In this document: positions 29,736-36,045 of the stretch, one piece after another | Numbering within the stretch: position 1 is the first letter of the stretch | Layout of the letters: every line of letters begins with the position of its first letter | Assembly: GCA_017994175.1 (NCBI GenBank) | Contig: JAGOLH010000016.1 | Coordinates: 2,907-48,688, forward strand | Origin: Bacteroidales bacterium | Lineage (GTDB): Bacteria > Bacteroidota > Bacteroidia > Bacteroidales > ML635J-15 | DNA length: 45,782 nucleotides | Reading direction: 5' to 3' | The notes under the pieces: generated by a model | What the model saw: the letters and a program-made list of their open reading frames with translations, nothing else | What the model was told of the DNA's origin: nothing | Databases searched by the model: none | Made by a program: the position numbers and the translations under genes

Positions 29736-29817
29736 AGTCAGTAATTTCAGGTAAAAATAATAAAATCAATTTCTTTTCGGAAACAATTTCCCATGTTTGG
29801 GATAAACGCAAGTTATA

Positions 29818-29876: not shown

Positions 29877-30692
29877 ATGAATGCAGATGCAATTCTTGAA
29901 AAGCTAGTTGACATTGGTATTAGTTATGGCCCGAAACTTATTGGAGCCATTGCAATCCTTCTTCTTGGTTTGTGGATTATCAAACTGGTTACAAAATCGC
30001 TGCGAAAAATGATGAATAAACGCAACACAAACAAAGAACTTCGTTCATTTTTTCTAAGTCTGGTTAACATCGCGCTGAAAGTACTATTGTTTGTAAGTGT
30101 ACTTGGTATGGTAGGCATCGAAGTAACATCGTTCATTGCCATATTGGGTGCTGCCGGTTTGGCTATCGGTATGGCACTTCAGGGGAGTTTGCAAAACTTT
30201 GCAGGCGGGGTAATCATTATCTTGCTCAAGCCCTTTAAGGTGGGCGATGTGCTCGAAGCCCAGGGTTACCTTGGAATAGTGAAAGAAATTCAAATTTTCA
30301 GTACCATACTTACAACCTTCGACAACAAAACCATTATTATACCAAACGGAGGTCTGGCAACCAGTTCCATGACGAATTATTCAACAGAATCGCTTCGCCG
30401 TGTCGATTGGCTCTATCAAGTGGCCTACGGCGATGATATCGACAAAGTGAAGGCTCTATGCACCAAGCTGATTGAGAATGATAGCCGCATCTTGAAAGAA
30501 CCGGCTGCATTTATCGCTGTAAATGGCTTAAAAGACAGCTCGGTTGAAGTTGCTGTAAGGGTTTGGGTAAAAAGCGAGGATTATTGGGCTGTGTTTCATT
30601 CTATGAATGAAAATGTGTATAATACTTTCCGAAGCGAAGGTCTTCATCTGCCCTACCCTCAAATGGATGTTCACTTACATAATTCAAAATAA
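29877..30692 (+). CDS. mscS: Small-conductance mechanosensitive channel, MscS family
   Basis: A 271-residue MscS-type channel that opens under membrane tension to release solutes. Three helices are visible: about 20–40 (IGAIAILLLGLWIIKL), about 60–85, and the pore helix rich in Ala and Gly (FIAILGAAGLAIGMALQGSLQNFAGG). The beta domain (FKVGDVLEAQGYLGIVKEI, then TTFDNKTIIIPNG) and the cytoplasmic cage follow. I start at the ATG at 29877; an ATG at 29793 would add 28 residues but precedes the likely promoter. Its stop abuts the ATG of osmC without a gap, giving a three-gene operon. Confidence 0.95.
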   Translation: MNADAILEKLVDIGISYGPKLIGAIAILLLGLWIIKLVTKSLRKMMNKRNTNKELRSFFLSLVNIALKVLLFVSVLGMVGIEVTSFIAILGAAGLAIGMALQGSLQNFAGGVIIILLKPFKVGDVLEAQGYLGIVKEIQIFSTILTTFDNKTIIIPNGGLATSSMTNYSTESLRRVDWLYQVAYGDDIDKVKALCTKLIENDSRILKEPAAFIAVNGLKDSSVEVAVRVWVKSEDYWAVFHSMNENVYNTFRSEGLHLPYPQMDVHLHNSK

Positions 30693-31124
30693 ATGGCTAC
30701 AGATTCTTTATCACTACAATGGGTCGACGGAATGGAGTTTACATCTTTGGTAAACGGCCATTCCATTACAATTGACGCCAATTCCGAGTTTGGAGGCAAG
30801 AATAAAGGCCCCCGTCCGAAACCGCTGATGATGCTTGCCTTAGCAGGATGTACCGGAATGGACGTAATTTCAATTCTTCATAAAATGCGTGTTTTCCCCG
30901 ACAGTTTCAAGGTTAACATCGAAACTGCCATCACAGATGAACACCCAAAACACTACACACGCATGAAAGTTATTTATGAATTCAGCGGCGAAAACCTTCC
31001 GGAAAACAAACTGAAAAGAGCTGTTGAACTATCGGAGCAACAATACTGCGGAGTGAGTGCAGTATATAAAAAAGCAATGAATCTTGAATTCGAAATCAGG
31101 TTGAATAACAAGGTACTTGCATGA
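30693..31124 (+). CDS. OsmC/Ohr family protein
   Basis: A 143-residue OsmC-fold protein of the thiol-dependent peroxide-reducing superfamily. Both redox cysteines appear in their usual settings, ALAGCTGMDV (about residue 53) and QYCGVSAVY (about residue 117). The GGKNKGPRPKPLMML segment is typical of the YhfA-like branch of OsmC proteins. It starts directly after mscS and overlaps the next gene by 4 bp (ATGA), so all three are translated together. The natural substrate is not evident. Confidence 0.9.
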   Translation: MATDSLSLQWVDGMEFTSLVNGHSITIDANSEFGGKNKGPRPKPLMMLALAGCTGMDVISILHKMRVFPDSFKVNIETAITDEHPKHYTRMKVIYEFSGENLPENKLKRAVELSEQQYCGVSAVYKKAMNLEFEIRLNNKVLA

Positions 31125-31531
31125 AGCTTTTATTGATATACTGCAGAAGGTTTTCGTATGACCCGGCAGTTAAAACCCTTGCCGAAGTTGCTGATGAAAC
31201 CGAAGGGAAAGAATTCATCAACGCGCAGGTAGCATTCATTCAGGTAGAAGAATCAGATGAAATTAACAGCCATAGTGTGGTGGAGAAACTGGTTAAGAAT
31301 ATTAAATGGGCATGCGGCAAAAACAGTACAAAAAATGTAGTACTTCATTCTTTCGCTCATTTATCGGAAAGCAAGGCCAAAACCGAAGTTTCGAAGAACA
31401 TCTTCGATTTGGCACAGGCAAAACTCACCAATGCAGGATATTCGGCACAGCAAACACCTTTTGGGTTTTTCCTTGATTTACATATCGATGCCCCCGGATA
31501 TTCGCTTGCAAGGATATTTAAAAGCTTTTAA
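31121..31531 (+). CDS. Stand-alone archaeal-type threonyl-tRNA synthetase editing domain
   Basis: A 136-residue protein that reads as a single ThrRS editing domain of the archaeal kind (tRNA-Thr_ED, PF08915), related in fold to D-aminoacyl-tRNA deacylases. Evidence: N-terminal strand KLLLIYCRRFSYDP, the AFIQVEESDE segment, VVLHSFAHLSES with H80 at the expected position, and TPFGFFLDLHIDAPGYSLARIF, which lines up with the family's APFGYYKAFKxSxKGHPLxEL end. The YK pair of that motif is replaced by F-L (117–118). In archaea the domain hydrolyses Ser-tRNA(Thr); here it could be a free-standing editing factor or have a changed role. No synthetase domain is attached and the bacterial ThrRS is not in the window. 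Third gene of the mscS operon. Confidence 0.8.
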   Translation: MKLLLIYCRRFSYDPAVKTLAEVADETEGKEFINAQVAFIQVEESDEINSHSVVEKLVKNIKWACGKNSTKNVVLHSFAHLSESKAKTEVSKNIFDLAQAKLTNAGYSAQQTPFGFFLDLHIDAPGYSLARIFKSF

Positions 31532-31542
31532 AAGAAAGAATC

Positions 31543-31911
31543 TTATTTCTTAAAAATAAAAAACACAGCAAGTACGAGAAAAATAAACCCAATCAGGTGA
31601 TTGATCCTGAATGTTTCTGTACGGAAAACCAGTAGAGTAAACAGTGTAAATACCACAAGCGTTATTACCTCCTGTATCACTTTCAGCTGAAACAACGAAA
31701 ACGGGCCTCCGTTTCCCTGATATCCTATGCGATTTGCCGGTACCTGAAAAAAATACTCAAAAAGTGCAATTCCCCAACTAATGAGCACTATTGCAATAAG
31801 TCCAAGCTTGTTGAACCAAGTCATCTGCGAAAATTTCAGGTGCCCGTACCATGCCAGGGTCATGAAGATGTTGGAGCAAATCAACAATACAATCGTGAGA
31901 ATTCCTTTCAT
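31543..31911 (-). CDS. DMT-family small membrane protein (DUF486)
   Basis: A 122-residue protein with four predicted membrane helices, matching the DUF486/COG3169 group. Signature stretches are NIFMTLAWYGHLK near the first helix, ISWGIALFEYFFQVPANRIGY in the second, and FSLFQLKVIQEVITLVVF in the third. The group is placed in the drug/metabolite transporter clan; no substrate is known. The stop lies 11 bp from the convergent editing-domain gene. Confidence 0.9.
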   Translation of the reverse strand: MKGILTIVLLICSNIFMTLAWYGHLKFSQMTWFNKLGLIAIVLISWGIALFEYFFQVPANRIGYQGNGGPFSLFQLKVIQEVITLVVFTLFTLLVFRTETFRINHLIGFIFLVLAVFFIFKK

Positions 31912-33093: not shown

Positions 33094-36045
33094 TTATCGC
33101 TTAATAAATTTGGCAGAGGTACGGGTATTACCATAAGTTAGAACAACCATGTAAACACCGTTATTAATATCGGTTACGTTGATTTGTTTTTGGTACTTTC
33201 CCTTAGTCACATTATTCAAATCGAAGGTTTTCACCAGTTTACCCTCAAGATTATATAGGCTGAGTCTGGCATTCGTAGTATTTTCGGTAATTTCAAAGGC
33301 CAGGTTGGCAATTTCGGTAACCGGATTCGGATAAATTAATAAATTAAGGTTTCCTTTGTCGGCAACGTTACTGCAAATTCCTACAGGGCCTTCGAATTCA
33401 GTGGATTTAAAAATACCGCGACCATGAGTGCCTGCCCAAATATAGCCATGATTTCTGATACCGTTATCGAGATGCACATCTTCCATCCAACCATTGGGGA
33501 TAATTTGCTGACGAAGGTGATACACAGGCACATAATCCATTCCTTCACCATTCTCGTCTGTCCAAACCGGATTGGCTGCAGTAATATCGCTGGTTGCAAA
33601 AACTCCAAATTCCGTACCCACGATTACTTTGCGTGAGTCGCTCCATACTATCAGTGCATCGTACACCGGCATTGCAGGCAGATTTCCCTGCTTTGAAACG
33701 AAACTCCCTGGACCGGTAGCTACCGCCGGGGCTGTATTAGCGCTGGTTGAGTAATACACATAATTGGTATTATCATAATTACCTAACGATACCACAACAT
33801 TGCCCGAAAATTCAGGGTCAACGCCAATTCCGGTTATGTGTCGGTCGTTGAAAACAGCAATCGGAGCAACTTCGAGCAGGTAAGTTGAGAAGTCGGCATC
33901 TCTGGCGCTGTCTTTTCTGTGAACATTAAAATCACCAACCCGGTACAAAACCGAACCATTAAAAAATCCGCCATTAATCCAATTGGTTGCAAAATACAGG
34001 TAGGCACCATCGGCGCTCCATTCAAGACATTGAACTACTTCGTAATTATTGGTTTCGTTGCGAACCTTTGCAACGGGTATCCAGTTTGCAGAAACACGGA
34101 AATTGAGCGCATCCTTTGTTATCCAAACACTGCCTTTAAAGCCTACTGCCAAACGCGATTGATAATGATCGGCCACTTCCAGGGTGTCGTCGTGTGCTAA
34201 AGGTTCATCGAGAACTTTTTTCACATAATGTTCTTTTATGTTACTTTCTACATACACAATTTCACCAGCAGCATAATCGCGGTCTGCTATTTTTGTAAGC
34301 ATTTCAATGCTGTTCAGGTCGTTGAAAGACTCCCACAAGCTAATAGGTGTAACAAATGAGTGTCCGCTTTCTTCTGCACCAGGGTTGAGCTGATTAGAGA
34401 GTCGTGCATTATAGAAAGGAGCCATTGTTTCGCCATTATCTTCGGAACGGTACAAGCTACCATAATATATTGTGCTGAATAAAATACTTGGTTCTATCTG
34501 TGATATTTCGCTGTAACCACCATCGCCTCCCGACACCTCTACTGCTTCATTTTGAAGACCTGAAGTAATAGTACGATCCGGGTCAATAAACAGAGTTCCA
34601 TTATCCTGAGTCCCTCCGATTAAGTTATTGGTTCCATCGTGGCCGATAGCATAGAACTGGGTAACTCCAAAGTTCTTGTTCAATGTCGTCCAGGTGTTAC
34701 CTCTGTTTATAGAACGATGAATTCCACCATCGCTGCCCACATACACTATATCGGGGTTATTCGGATTAAAGCGTATTTCGTGCTGATCGGCATGTACATA
34801 CATTGGACTGGCAATATCGAGGCTCCAGTACGATAACATTTCCCAACCAGTTGAAAGTCCCCATTTCCACATGCTGTACTGGCCACCAACCATGATTTCG
34901 TTTGCATTATCGGGAAAAACGGCTATAATATTGTCGTAATCGCCTTGTTCGCCAAGAGGATTAAATTCGGTGCTACCTCCGGGTCCGATAATTGACCAAG
35001 TCAAGCCACCATCGGTGGAACGGTAAATGTTGAGCAATGAGCGATCGGATTTGGTGGTTTGGGCATACATGATATTTTTATCGGAAGGAGCAATAGCGAG
35101 TTCAGTTCGTATTGATGTTGTAGGCAGTTCACCTTCATCAGAACCGGTAACCTTAACCCATGAATCAGATGCTCCTGCTTCATGCGAAACATAAACCTGA
35201 ATACCCAGATCAACGATAATTGAATTTCCGTCGGAACTGATTTCGACATCGCCGCAAACTTCATTTATCGGGAAGCCGGCTATATTTAAAATTGGATTGG
35301 TCCAGGTAAGTCCGCCATCGGTGGTCATTTGCAAACCGCGCTTGGTAGCAGCATATACGGTGTTGGGTTCTGAAGGGTGAGCTACCATTTTATTAACAAA
35401 GACGAAAGTATTTTTACTATCAGATGTTGACCATGTTGCACTCAGACGTGTAAATGTTTCACCATCGGTTGATTTCCATATCCCGGCTCCCTGAAACCCG
35501 GTATTCTGAGAACCATAAGGGTTGGCAAAGAATTCACCGGTACCGAAGTAGATATCTCCGTTTGAAGTTTGGCAGATAGAGCTAATATTCAAATTCGGAA
35601 TAAGTGCTGTTTCATTGTCTCCGGCATATTTCACCTGATTCCAGCTTGTGCCTCCAGTGGTTGATTTCCACAATCCCCCTGAAACGCCTCCTGCATAAAT
35701 TATATCGGTGTTGTCTTCGTCAACCAGAATTGCCCTGCAACGGCCACCAATATTTGATGGTCCGGCGAACTGCCAGTTCAAGCCCATGGCATTACGCGAG
35801 GACTGCATTCTTCCAATCTGCCTGATTGCATTTTCAACAGCTCCCGGATTGATTTGGCCTGTTTGTACATTGGCCTGACGTTCGTAAATCCATTTGGCAG
35901 CTCCCGAAAAACTGTTGTGCTGAAGCTGCATTGTTGTGTTATCGGGTTGATACACAGCTTGTGCATTCCTTTGCTGGGAAACCGCCAGAATTATACCACC
36001 GGAAACCAATAAAACCAACAACGTGAATAAAGTTAACTTTCTCAT
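33094..36045 (-). CDS. T9SS-exported BNR/sortilin-like repeat protein
   Basis: A 983-residue secreted protein with a signal peptide or anchor (about 1–29) and a large beta-propeller region at about 90–870. It is marked by repeated Asp-box motifs of the S-x-D-x-G-x-T-W type: STTGGTSW, STDGETF, TTDGGLTW, STDGGLTW, SINRGNTW and SEDNGETM. Such WD40/YVTN/BNR-like proteins resemble sialidase or xyloglucanase propellers; many are binding proteins rather than enzymes, and I see no catalytic triad to claim. A T9SS type A tail ends it (LLIYPNPVTE, GVYMVVLTYG, SAKFIKR). Stand-alone gene with a terminator at 33046–33078. Confidence 0.92.
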   Translation of the reverse strand: MRKLTLFTLLVLLVSGGIILAVSQQRNAQAVYQPDNTTMQLQHNSFSGAAKWIYERQANVQTGQINPGAVENAIRQIGRMQSSRNAMGLNWQFAGPSNIGGRCRAILVDEDNTDIIYAGGVSGGLWKSTTGGTSWNQVKYAGDNETALIPNLNISSICQTSNGDIYFGTGEFFANPYGSQNTGFQGAGIWKSTDGETFTRLSATWSTSDSKNTFVFVNKMVAHPSEPNTVYAATKRGLQMTTDGGLTWTNPILNIAGFPINEVCGDVEISSDGNSIIVDLGIQVYVSHEAGASDSWVKVTGSDEGELPTTSIRTELAIAPSDKNIMYAQTTKSDRSLLNIYRSTDGGLTWSIIGPGGSTEFNPLGEQGDYDNIIAVFPDNANEIMVGGQYSMWKWGLSTGWEMLSYWSLDIASPMYVHADQHEIRFNPNNPDIVYVGSDGGIHRSINRGNTWTTLNKNFGVTQFYAIGHDGTNNLIGGTQDNGTLFIDPDRTITSGLQNEAVEVSGGDGGYSEISQIEPSILFSTIYYGSLYRSEDNGETMAPFYNARLSNQLNPGAEESGHSFVTPISLWESFNDLNSIEMLTKIADRDYAAGEIVYVESNIKEHYVKKVLDEPLAHDDTLEVADHYQSRLAVGFKGSVWITKDALNFRVSANWIPVAKVRNETNNYEVVQCLEWSADGAYLYFATNWINGGFFNGSVLYRVGDFNVHRKDSARDADFSTYLLEVAPIAVFNDRHITGIGVDPEFSGNVVVSLGNYDNTNYVYYSTSANTAPAVATGPGSFVSKQGNLPAMPVYDALIVWSDSRKVIVGTEFGVFATSDITAANPVWTDENGEGMDYVPVYHLRQQIIPNGWMEDVHLDNGIRNHGYIWAGTHGRGIFKSTEFEGPVGICSNVADKGNLNLLIYPNPVTEIANLAFEITENTTNARLSLYNLEGKLVKTFDLNNVTKGKYQKQINVTDINNGVYMVVLTYGNTRTSAKFIKR

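Follow-up and report, generated by a model that had tools for sequence, protein, structure and literature searches.

The window, a stretch of 45,782 nucleotides from a Bacteroidales bacterium, contains a row of three forward-strand genes that ends in a freestanding protein of the PF08915 family, here called the ED protein (Table 1). The initial annotation had placed this gene behind those of a mechanosensitive channel and an OsmC protein, with a 4-bp overlap. Both features are seen in the coordinates. The MscS gene ends at 30692 and abuts the OsmC start at 30693, and the OsmC stop codon (31122-31124) shares the sequence ATGA with the ATG of the ED gene (31121-31123). A longer open reading frame, starting at 29793, is possible for the MscS protein. 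All three genes have much the same GC content (0.40-0.42).

The ED gene is the only PF08915 locus of the host genome. Its product is unfused: the 136-aa open reading frame stops at 31531, and the host gene for threonyl-tRNA synthetase (ThrRS) lies on a different contig. A DUF486 (DMT_6) membrane protein, encoded at 31543-31911 on the reverse strand, converges on the ED gene. Positions 33094-36045, also on the reverse strand, encode a secreted 983-aa protein whose C-terminal region resembles a type IX secretion sorting domain.

Table 1. Features of the ED locus, in positions of the window
Feature	Position	Strand	Remarks
MscS-type mechanosensitive channel, 271 aa from ATG 29877	29877..30692	+	PF00924 E 1.9e-20; local neighbour, no conserved ED partner
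OsmC-like protein, 143 aa	30693..31124	+	PF02566 E 3e-15; local neighbour, no conserved ED partner
PF08915 (tRNA-Thr_ED) freestanding protein, 136 aa	31121..31531	+	ATG start; PF08915 127 bits
Pocket motif HSFAHL, residues 76-81 of ED protein	31346..31363	+	
Pocket motif FGFFLD, residues 114-119 of ED protein	31460..31477	+	
Arg131 codon, at P. abyssi Glu134 position	31511..31513	+	R in 51/51 copies

Family and fold of the ED protein

In a profile search, the ED protein matched PF08915 over profile positions 1-136 of 137 (E 6.7e-37, 127.1 bits; the curated cut-off is 30.2 bits). It lands squarely inside the family, and its earlier description as a freestanding 136-residue protein of the archaeal ThrRS editing-domain type is confirmed. 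Such proteins presumably carry the NCBI name 'threonyl-tRNA synthetase editing domain-containing protein'. The nearest solved structures by sequence are the ThrRS editing domains of Pyrococcus abyssi, Methanocaldococcus jannaschii and Aeropyrum pernix (E about 2e-13). The alignment to the P. abyssi domain has no gaps across the C-terminal half and an offset of +3, with H80 at the position of H83, F117 at Y120, L118 at K121 and R131 at E134.

An AlphaFold2 model of the ED protein, built on 51 bacterial sequences, has a mean pLDDT of 93. Compared using VIA-align, it reaches Z-scores of 20-23 with archaeal ThrRS editing domains (22-23 with that of P. abyssi), 14-15.5 with DTD and 12.9 with ATD. 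DTD and ATD (PF02580) share with the ED protein the fold, a freestanding form and, where the archaeal domains have lysine, a hydrophobic residue. However, the ED protein fits the ThrRS editing domain better (Z 22, against about 15), has no match to PF02580 at E-values up to 1, and lacks the DTD motifs SQFTL and Gly-cisPro GPVT. An equivalence of S77 with DTD Ser87 was dropped, as the profile alignment of this loop is ambiguous and weak overall (probability 3.6). By profile and fold, the ED protein is a member of PF08915, but its residues depart from those that define the Ser-tRNA(Thr) editing site.

Pocket residues in the bacterial standalone copies

The comparison covered 51 distinct standalone copies. 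They came from 40 of the 247 genomes sampled in the same order and from other sources, namely one relative in the same family, one genome from a draw of the rest of the phylum, named Bacteroidota contigs and one copy binned as Spirochaetota. The third apparent match of the phylum draw (G188) fell below the cut-off and resembles a YggS-type protein. One genome (G499; contigs C233, C197 and C250) has two full copies and one partial match.

In P. abyssi, the scissile bond has P80, F81, A82, H83, Y120, K121 and E134 within 6 Å (PMC4491819). Four of these seven first-shell residues, P80, Y120, K121 and E134, are invariantly exchanged in the bacterial copies. P80 is replaced by S77, Y120 by F117 and E134 by R131 in all 51 copies, and at the position of K121 (residue 118), 49 copies have L and two have M. 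Outside this set, P. abyssi Y79 is replaced by H76 and K128 by P throughout, and the position of A122 (residue 119) is D in 46 copies, N in four and E in one. By contrast, F78 (P. abyssi F81) and H80 (H83) are retained in every copy and A79 in 50. In the adenine site, the stacking residue F114 (P. abyssi F117) is kept in 50 copies, with Y in the remaining one, and G115 (G118) never varies. The only new invariant lysine in the bacterial copies is at the position of P. abyssi L88.

The initial annotation had pointed to an AHLS sequence with H80 and to a PFG block, and both are present without gaps relative to P. abyssi. It had also stated that FGYYK is replaced by FGFFL, with loss of the lysine. 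The replacement is real, and position 121 has no lysine in any of the 51 copies, but the change is wider, in that it includes P80 to S and E134 to R. Given that the loss is common to all copies, it is no peculiarity of the host gene. The mean column identity over the 51 copies is 62%, and against this background the constancy of S77, F117, L/M118 and R131 argues for a maintained site. Judged from the alignment, the rebuilt pocket is a conserved subfamily signature and not decay. Neutral drift of the whole residue set is hard to square with this uniformity, and a pseudogene or local decay was ruled out, since the open reading frame is intact and the pocket is uniform.

A complete archaeal-type ThrRS with a fused PF08915 domain occurs in the Spirochaetota draw (genome G739, locus L099 1-1953 (-)). 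The whole enzyme was probably transferred from archaea. Its fused domain reads YPYVH, PFGWYK and HPLSE, and thus retains P80, the YK pair and E. Since this domain is unaltered although it occurs in a bacterium, the altered pocket tracks the standalone form and not the bacterial host. The contig of the standalone copy binned as Spirochaetota (L010/L098) carries a Bacteroidota-like outer-membrane receptor gene, and Bacteroidales copies adjoin this copy in the tree. Mis-binning and recent transfer cannot be separated in this case.

The roles of several of these residues were established in archaeal domains. Mutation of the lysine to methionine (K121M) severely reduced hydrolysis of Ser-tRNA(Thr) in P. 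abyssi, A. pernix and M. jannaschii by displacing the catalytic water (PMC4491819). The H83A mutation inactivated the P. abyssi domain, but that of A. pernix only partly (PMC4491819). Removal of both Y120 and E134 caused a loss of only 1.5- to 1.7-fold and left Ser/Thr discrimination intact; in P. abyssi, E134 grips the α-amino group of the substrate from the opposite subunit (PMC4491819). In DTD the lysine is naturally replaced by Met, and catalysis proceeds without protein side chains both in DTD and in the ThrRS editing domain (PMC4491819, PMC3845328). The invariant Phe137 and Gly138 of DTD hold the adenosine, and its selectivity requires the Gly-cisPro motif (PMC3845328). The retained Phe and Gly of the ED protein are the counterparts of this pair. 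Archaeal editing domains reportedly need U73 in the tRNA (PMC11295145, PMC8762117).

The ED protein descends from the domain with which an archaeal enzyme takes wrong amino acids off a tRNA. It resembles the N-terminal editing domain of archaeal ThrRS (P. abyssi, M. jannaschii) in its full-length profile match, its fold (Z 22) and the residues H83, F117 and G118. It differs in being freestanding, in the four exchanges (P80 to S, Y120 to F, K121 to L/M and E134 to R) and in having as host a bacterium whose ThrRS carries the bacterial N2 editing domain. The same domain is found in the ThrRS-ed or ThrRS-2 of Crenarchaeota (A. pernix), and the ED protein presumably also acts in trans. However, ThrRS-2 has an anticodon-binding domain and retains WYK and E, whereas the ED protein is only 136 aa long. 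Archaea are known to encode standalone tRNA-Thr-ED proteins next to SepCysS, and bacterial SepRS occurs with the domain fused to it (PMC5424206, PMC8762117). In these systems too, the domain occurs outside ThrRS, and in the SepRS case it is also found in bacteria. The SepRS-fused copies were reported to retain the serine-recognition motif completely (PMC8762117), but this motif is replaced in the 51 copies here. In open-access papers, we found no description of a Bacteroidota standalone subfamily or of the F-L/R pocket. The DTD fold edits by RNA chemistry with few essential side chains, so nature offers in this subfamily, with its four exchanged and since then fixed first-shell residues, an experiment on how the fold changes substrate.

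Genomic neighbours and distribution

A role in osmotic or oxidative stress had been proposed for the ED protein. Across 84 loci (563 kb), ED has no MscS or OsmC gene near it outside the host locus, and the OsmC orthologues of 11 genomes of the same family have neither MscS nor ED in the flanks retrieved. Only the host genome shows the MscS-OsmC-ED order, so the link to stress hangs on one genome. We therefore rejected a stress operon, as MscS and OsmC are away from ED elsewhere and OsmC is apart from both in the 11 relatives.

The neighbours of ED genes at other loci vary. SepRS and SepCysS were not recognised among those that are annotated. In one relative (L059 3595-4466 (-)), a DTD gene of the same orientation follows the ED gene after 2 bp, forming a tandem of two DTD-fold proteins. 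In one sub-clade, the ED gene is part of an island with an arsenic efflux permease, NifX-like proteins, MinD/ferredoxin ATPases and an OYE-type reductase, as well as TrmO, a methyltransferase and an MFS transporter. An anaerobe island with the permease, the NifX-like proteins, the ATPases, the reductase, TrmO and the MFS transporter, together with a CGGC protein and an octaheme cytochrome, recurs at loci L006, L060, L061, L063, L066, L068, L073 and L097. The near-identical ED copies of the sub-clade span five families, which suggests horizontal transfer. We rejected ED as cargo of mobile elements, as no copy was found among plasmids or phages and none was confirmed in viral contigs.

The MFS transporter is present in 11 of 40 ED genomes, but in only 4 of 207 genomes without ED (Fisher p 5e-7, uncorrected for kinship or habitat). 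Of the 11, only three have it on one contig with ED. ED genomes also more often have a member of the arsenic permease family (25/40 versus 63/207; p 2e-4, likewise uncorrected for kinship or habitat), whereas nitrogenase reductase, the control, shows no such enrichment (1/40 versus 17/207). The co-occurrence with the MFS transporter may point to an amino acid, or an analogue of one, that is exported.

Proposed function and alternatives

The host ThrRS is of the bacterial type, and its N2 domain (PF07973) has intact HSSSH and CKGPH motifs. The serine job is therefore taken. A DTD gene is present in the host, as it is in 39 of the 42 ED-bearing genomes examined. With the N2 site and DTD both present, we ruled out that the ED protein fills a missing proofreading function. 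In a host with no apparent gap in proofreading, either the natural substrate is missed by the standard factors or the protein has left tRNA work. Among the host tRNAs read, U73 occurs only in tRNA-Thr (all three isoacceptors), tRNA-Gly and tRNA-Cys.

With moderate confidence, we propose that the ED protein is a trans-acting aminoacyl-tRNA deacylase that has kept its grip on A76 and the 2′-OH chemistry, and reads another aminoacyl group. The trans-editing factor of the initial annotation thus survives as the likeliest reading, with altered specificity; its stress setting does not. The protein would form a dimer and bind the 3′-terminal A76 of the charged tRNA, whose 2′-OH would activate water as it does in DTD and the archaeal N-terminal editing domain (NTD). 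It could tolerate a hydrophobic residue in place of the lysine, as DTD does with its Met. More speculatively, R131 of the opposite subunit might replace the Glu that holds the α-amino group. Such a change could mean that a different aminoacyl moiety is read, which may be acidic, N-modified or otherwise unusual. The tRNA would be that for Thr, Gly or Cys, if the archaeal preference for U73 persists. From the residues kept and lost, A76 binding and 2′-OH-assisted hydrolysis are likely retained, and efficient serine editing is unlikely. The near-universal DTD of ED genomes, which leaves no obvious proofreading gap, counts against this proposal. Moreover, the ED loci have no constant genomic partner that points to a tRNA or synthetase, and the near-abolition of Ser-tRNA(Thr) editing by K121M in three archaeal domains makes a loss of all aminoacyl-tRNA activity possible.

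The ED protein could also be a back-up editor in trans, which would still carry out the archaeal reaction on Ser-tRNA(Thr) with a degenerate pocket. Since the fold can largely do without its side chains, FL and R131 could be neutral changes. Consistent with this idea, Y120A/E134A double mutants retain about two thirds of the activity and full Ser/Thr discrimination (PMC4491819), H83 is in every copy, and tRNA-Thr of the host always has U73. However, the replacements are invariant in the 51 copies and do not drift, and the severe effect of K121M in all three archaeal domains, together with a host ThrRS that already has an intact N2 editing site, makes redundant serine editing unlikely.

The loss of the key lysine and glutamate from all copies would also fit a DTD-fold protein put to a new use, one that has ceased to hydrolyse aminoacyl-tRNA and instead binds a nucleotide or another small molecule, perhaps in the metabolism of metals or in redox reactions. 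One sub-clade places the gene in the arsenic permease, NifX-like, MinD-ferredoxin, OYE and MFS island, but this island is confined to part of the family, and the neighbours elsewhere are unrelated. H83 is retained, as are Phe and Gly in the adenine site, and we regard this alternative as quite improbable. A DTD-like chiral or glycine proofreader, acting on D-aminoacyl-tRNA or Gly-tRNA, would account for the common fold, the L/M at the position of DTD Met141 and the single ED-DTD gene pair. It is very improbable, as the Gly-cisPro motif essential for DTD selectivity (PMC3845328) is missing, PF02580 is not matched, and a separate DTD is present in the host and in most ED genomes.

The proposal of an altered-specificity deacylase can be extended, tentatively and with considerable doubt, to a dedicated bacterial trans-editor that strips a non-proteinogenic or damaged amino acid, acidic or N-modified and read by the Arg of the opposite subunit, from a U73 tRNA such as tRNA-Thr, while the linked MFS transporter exports the same compound. 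If active, the ED protein would be a quality-control factor in about one in six sampled genomes of this Bacteroidota order (40/247).
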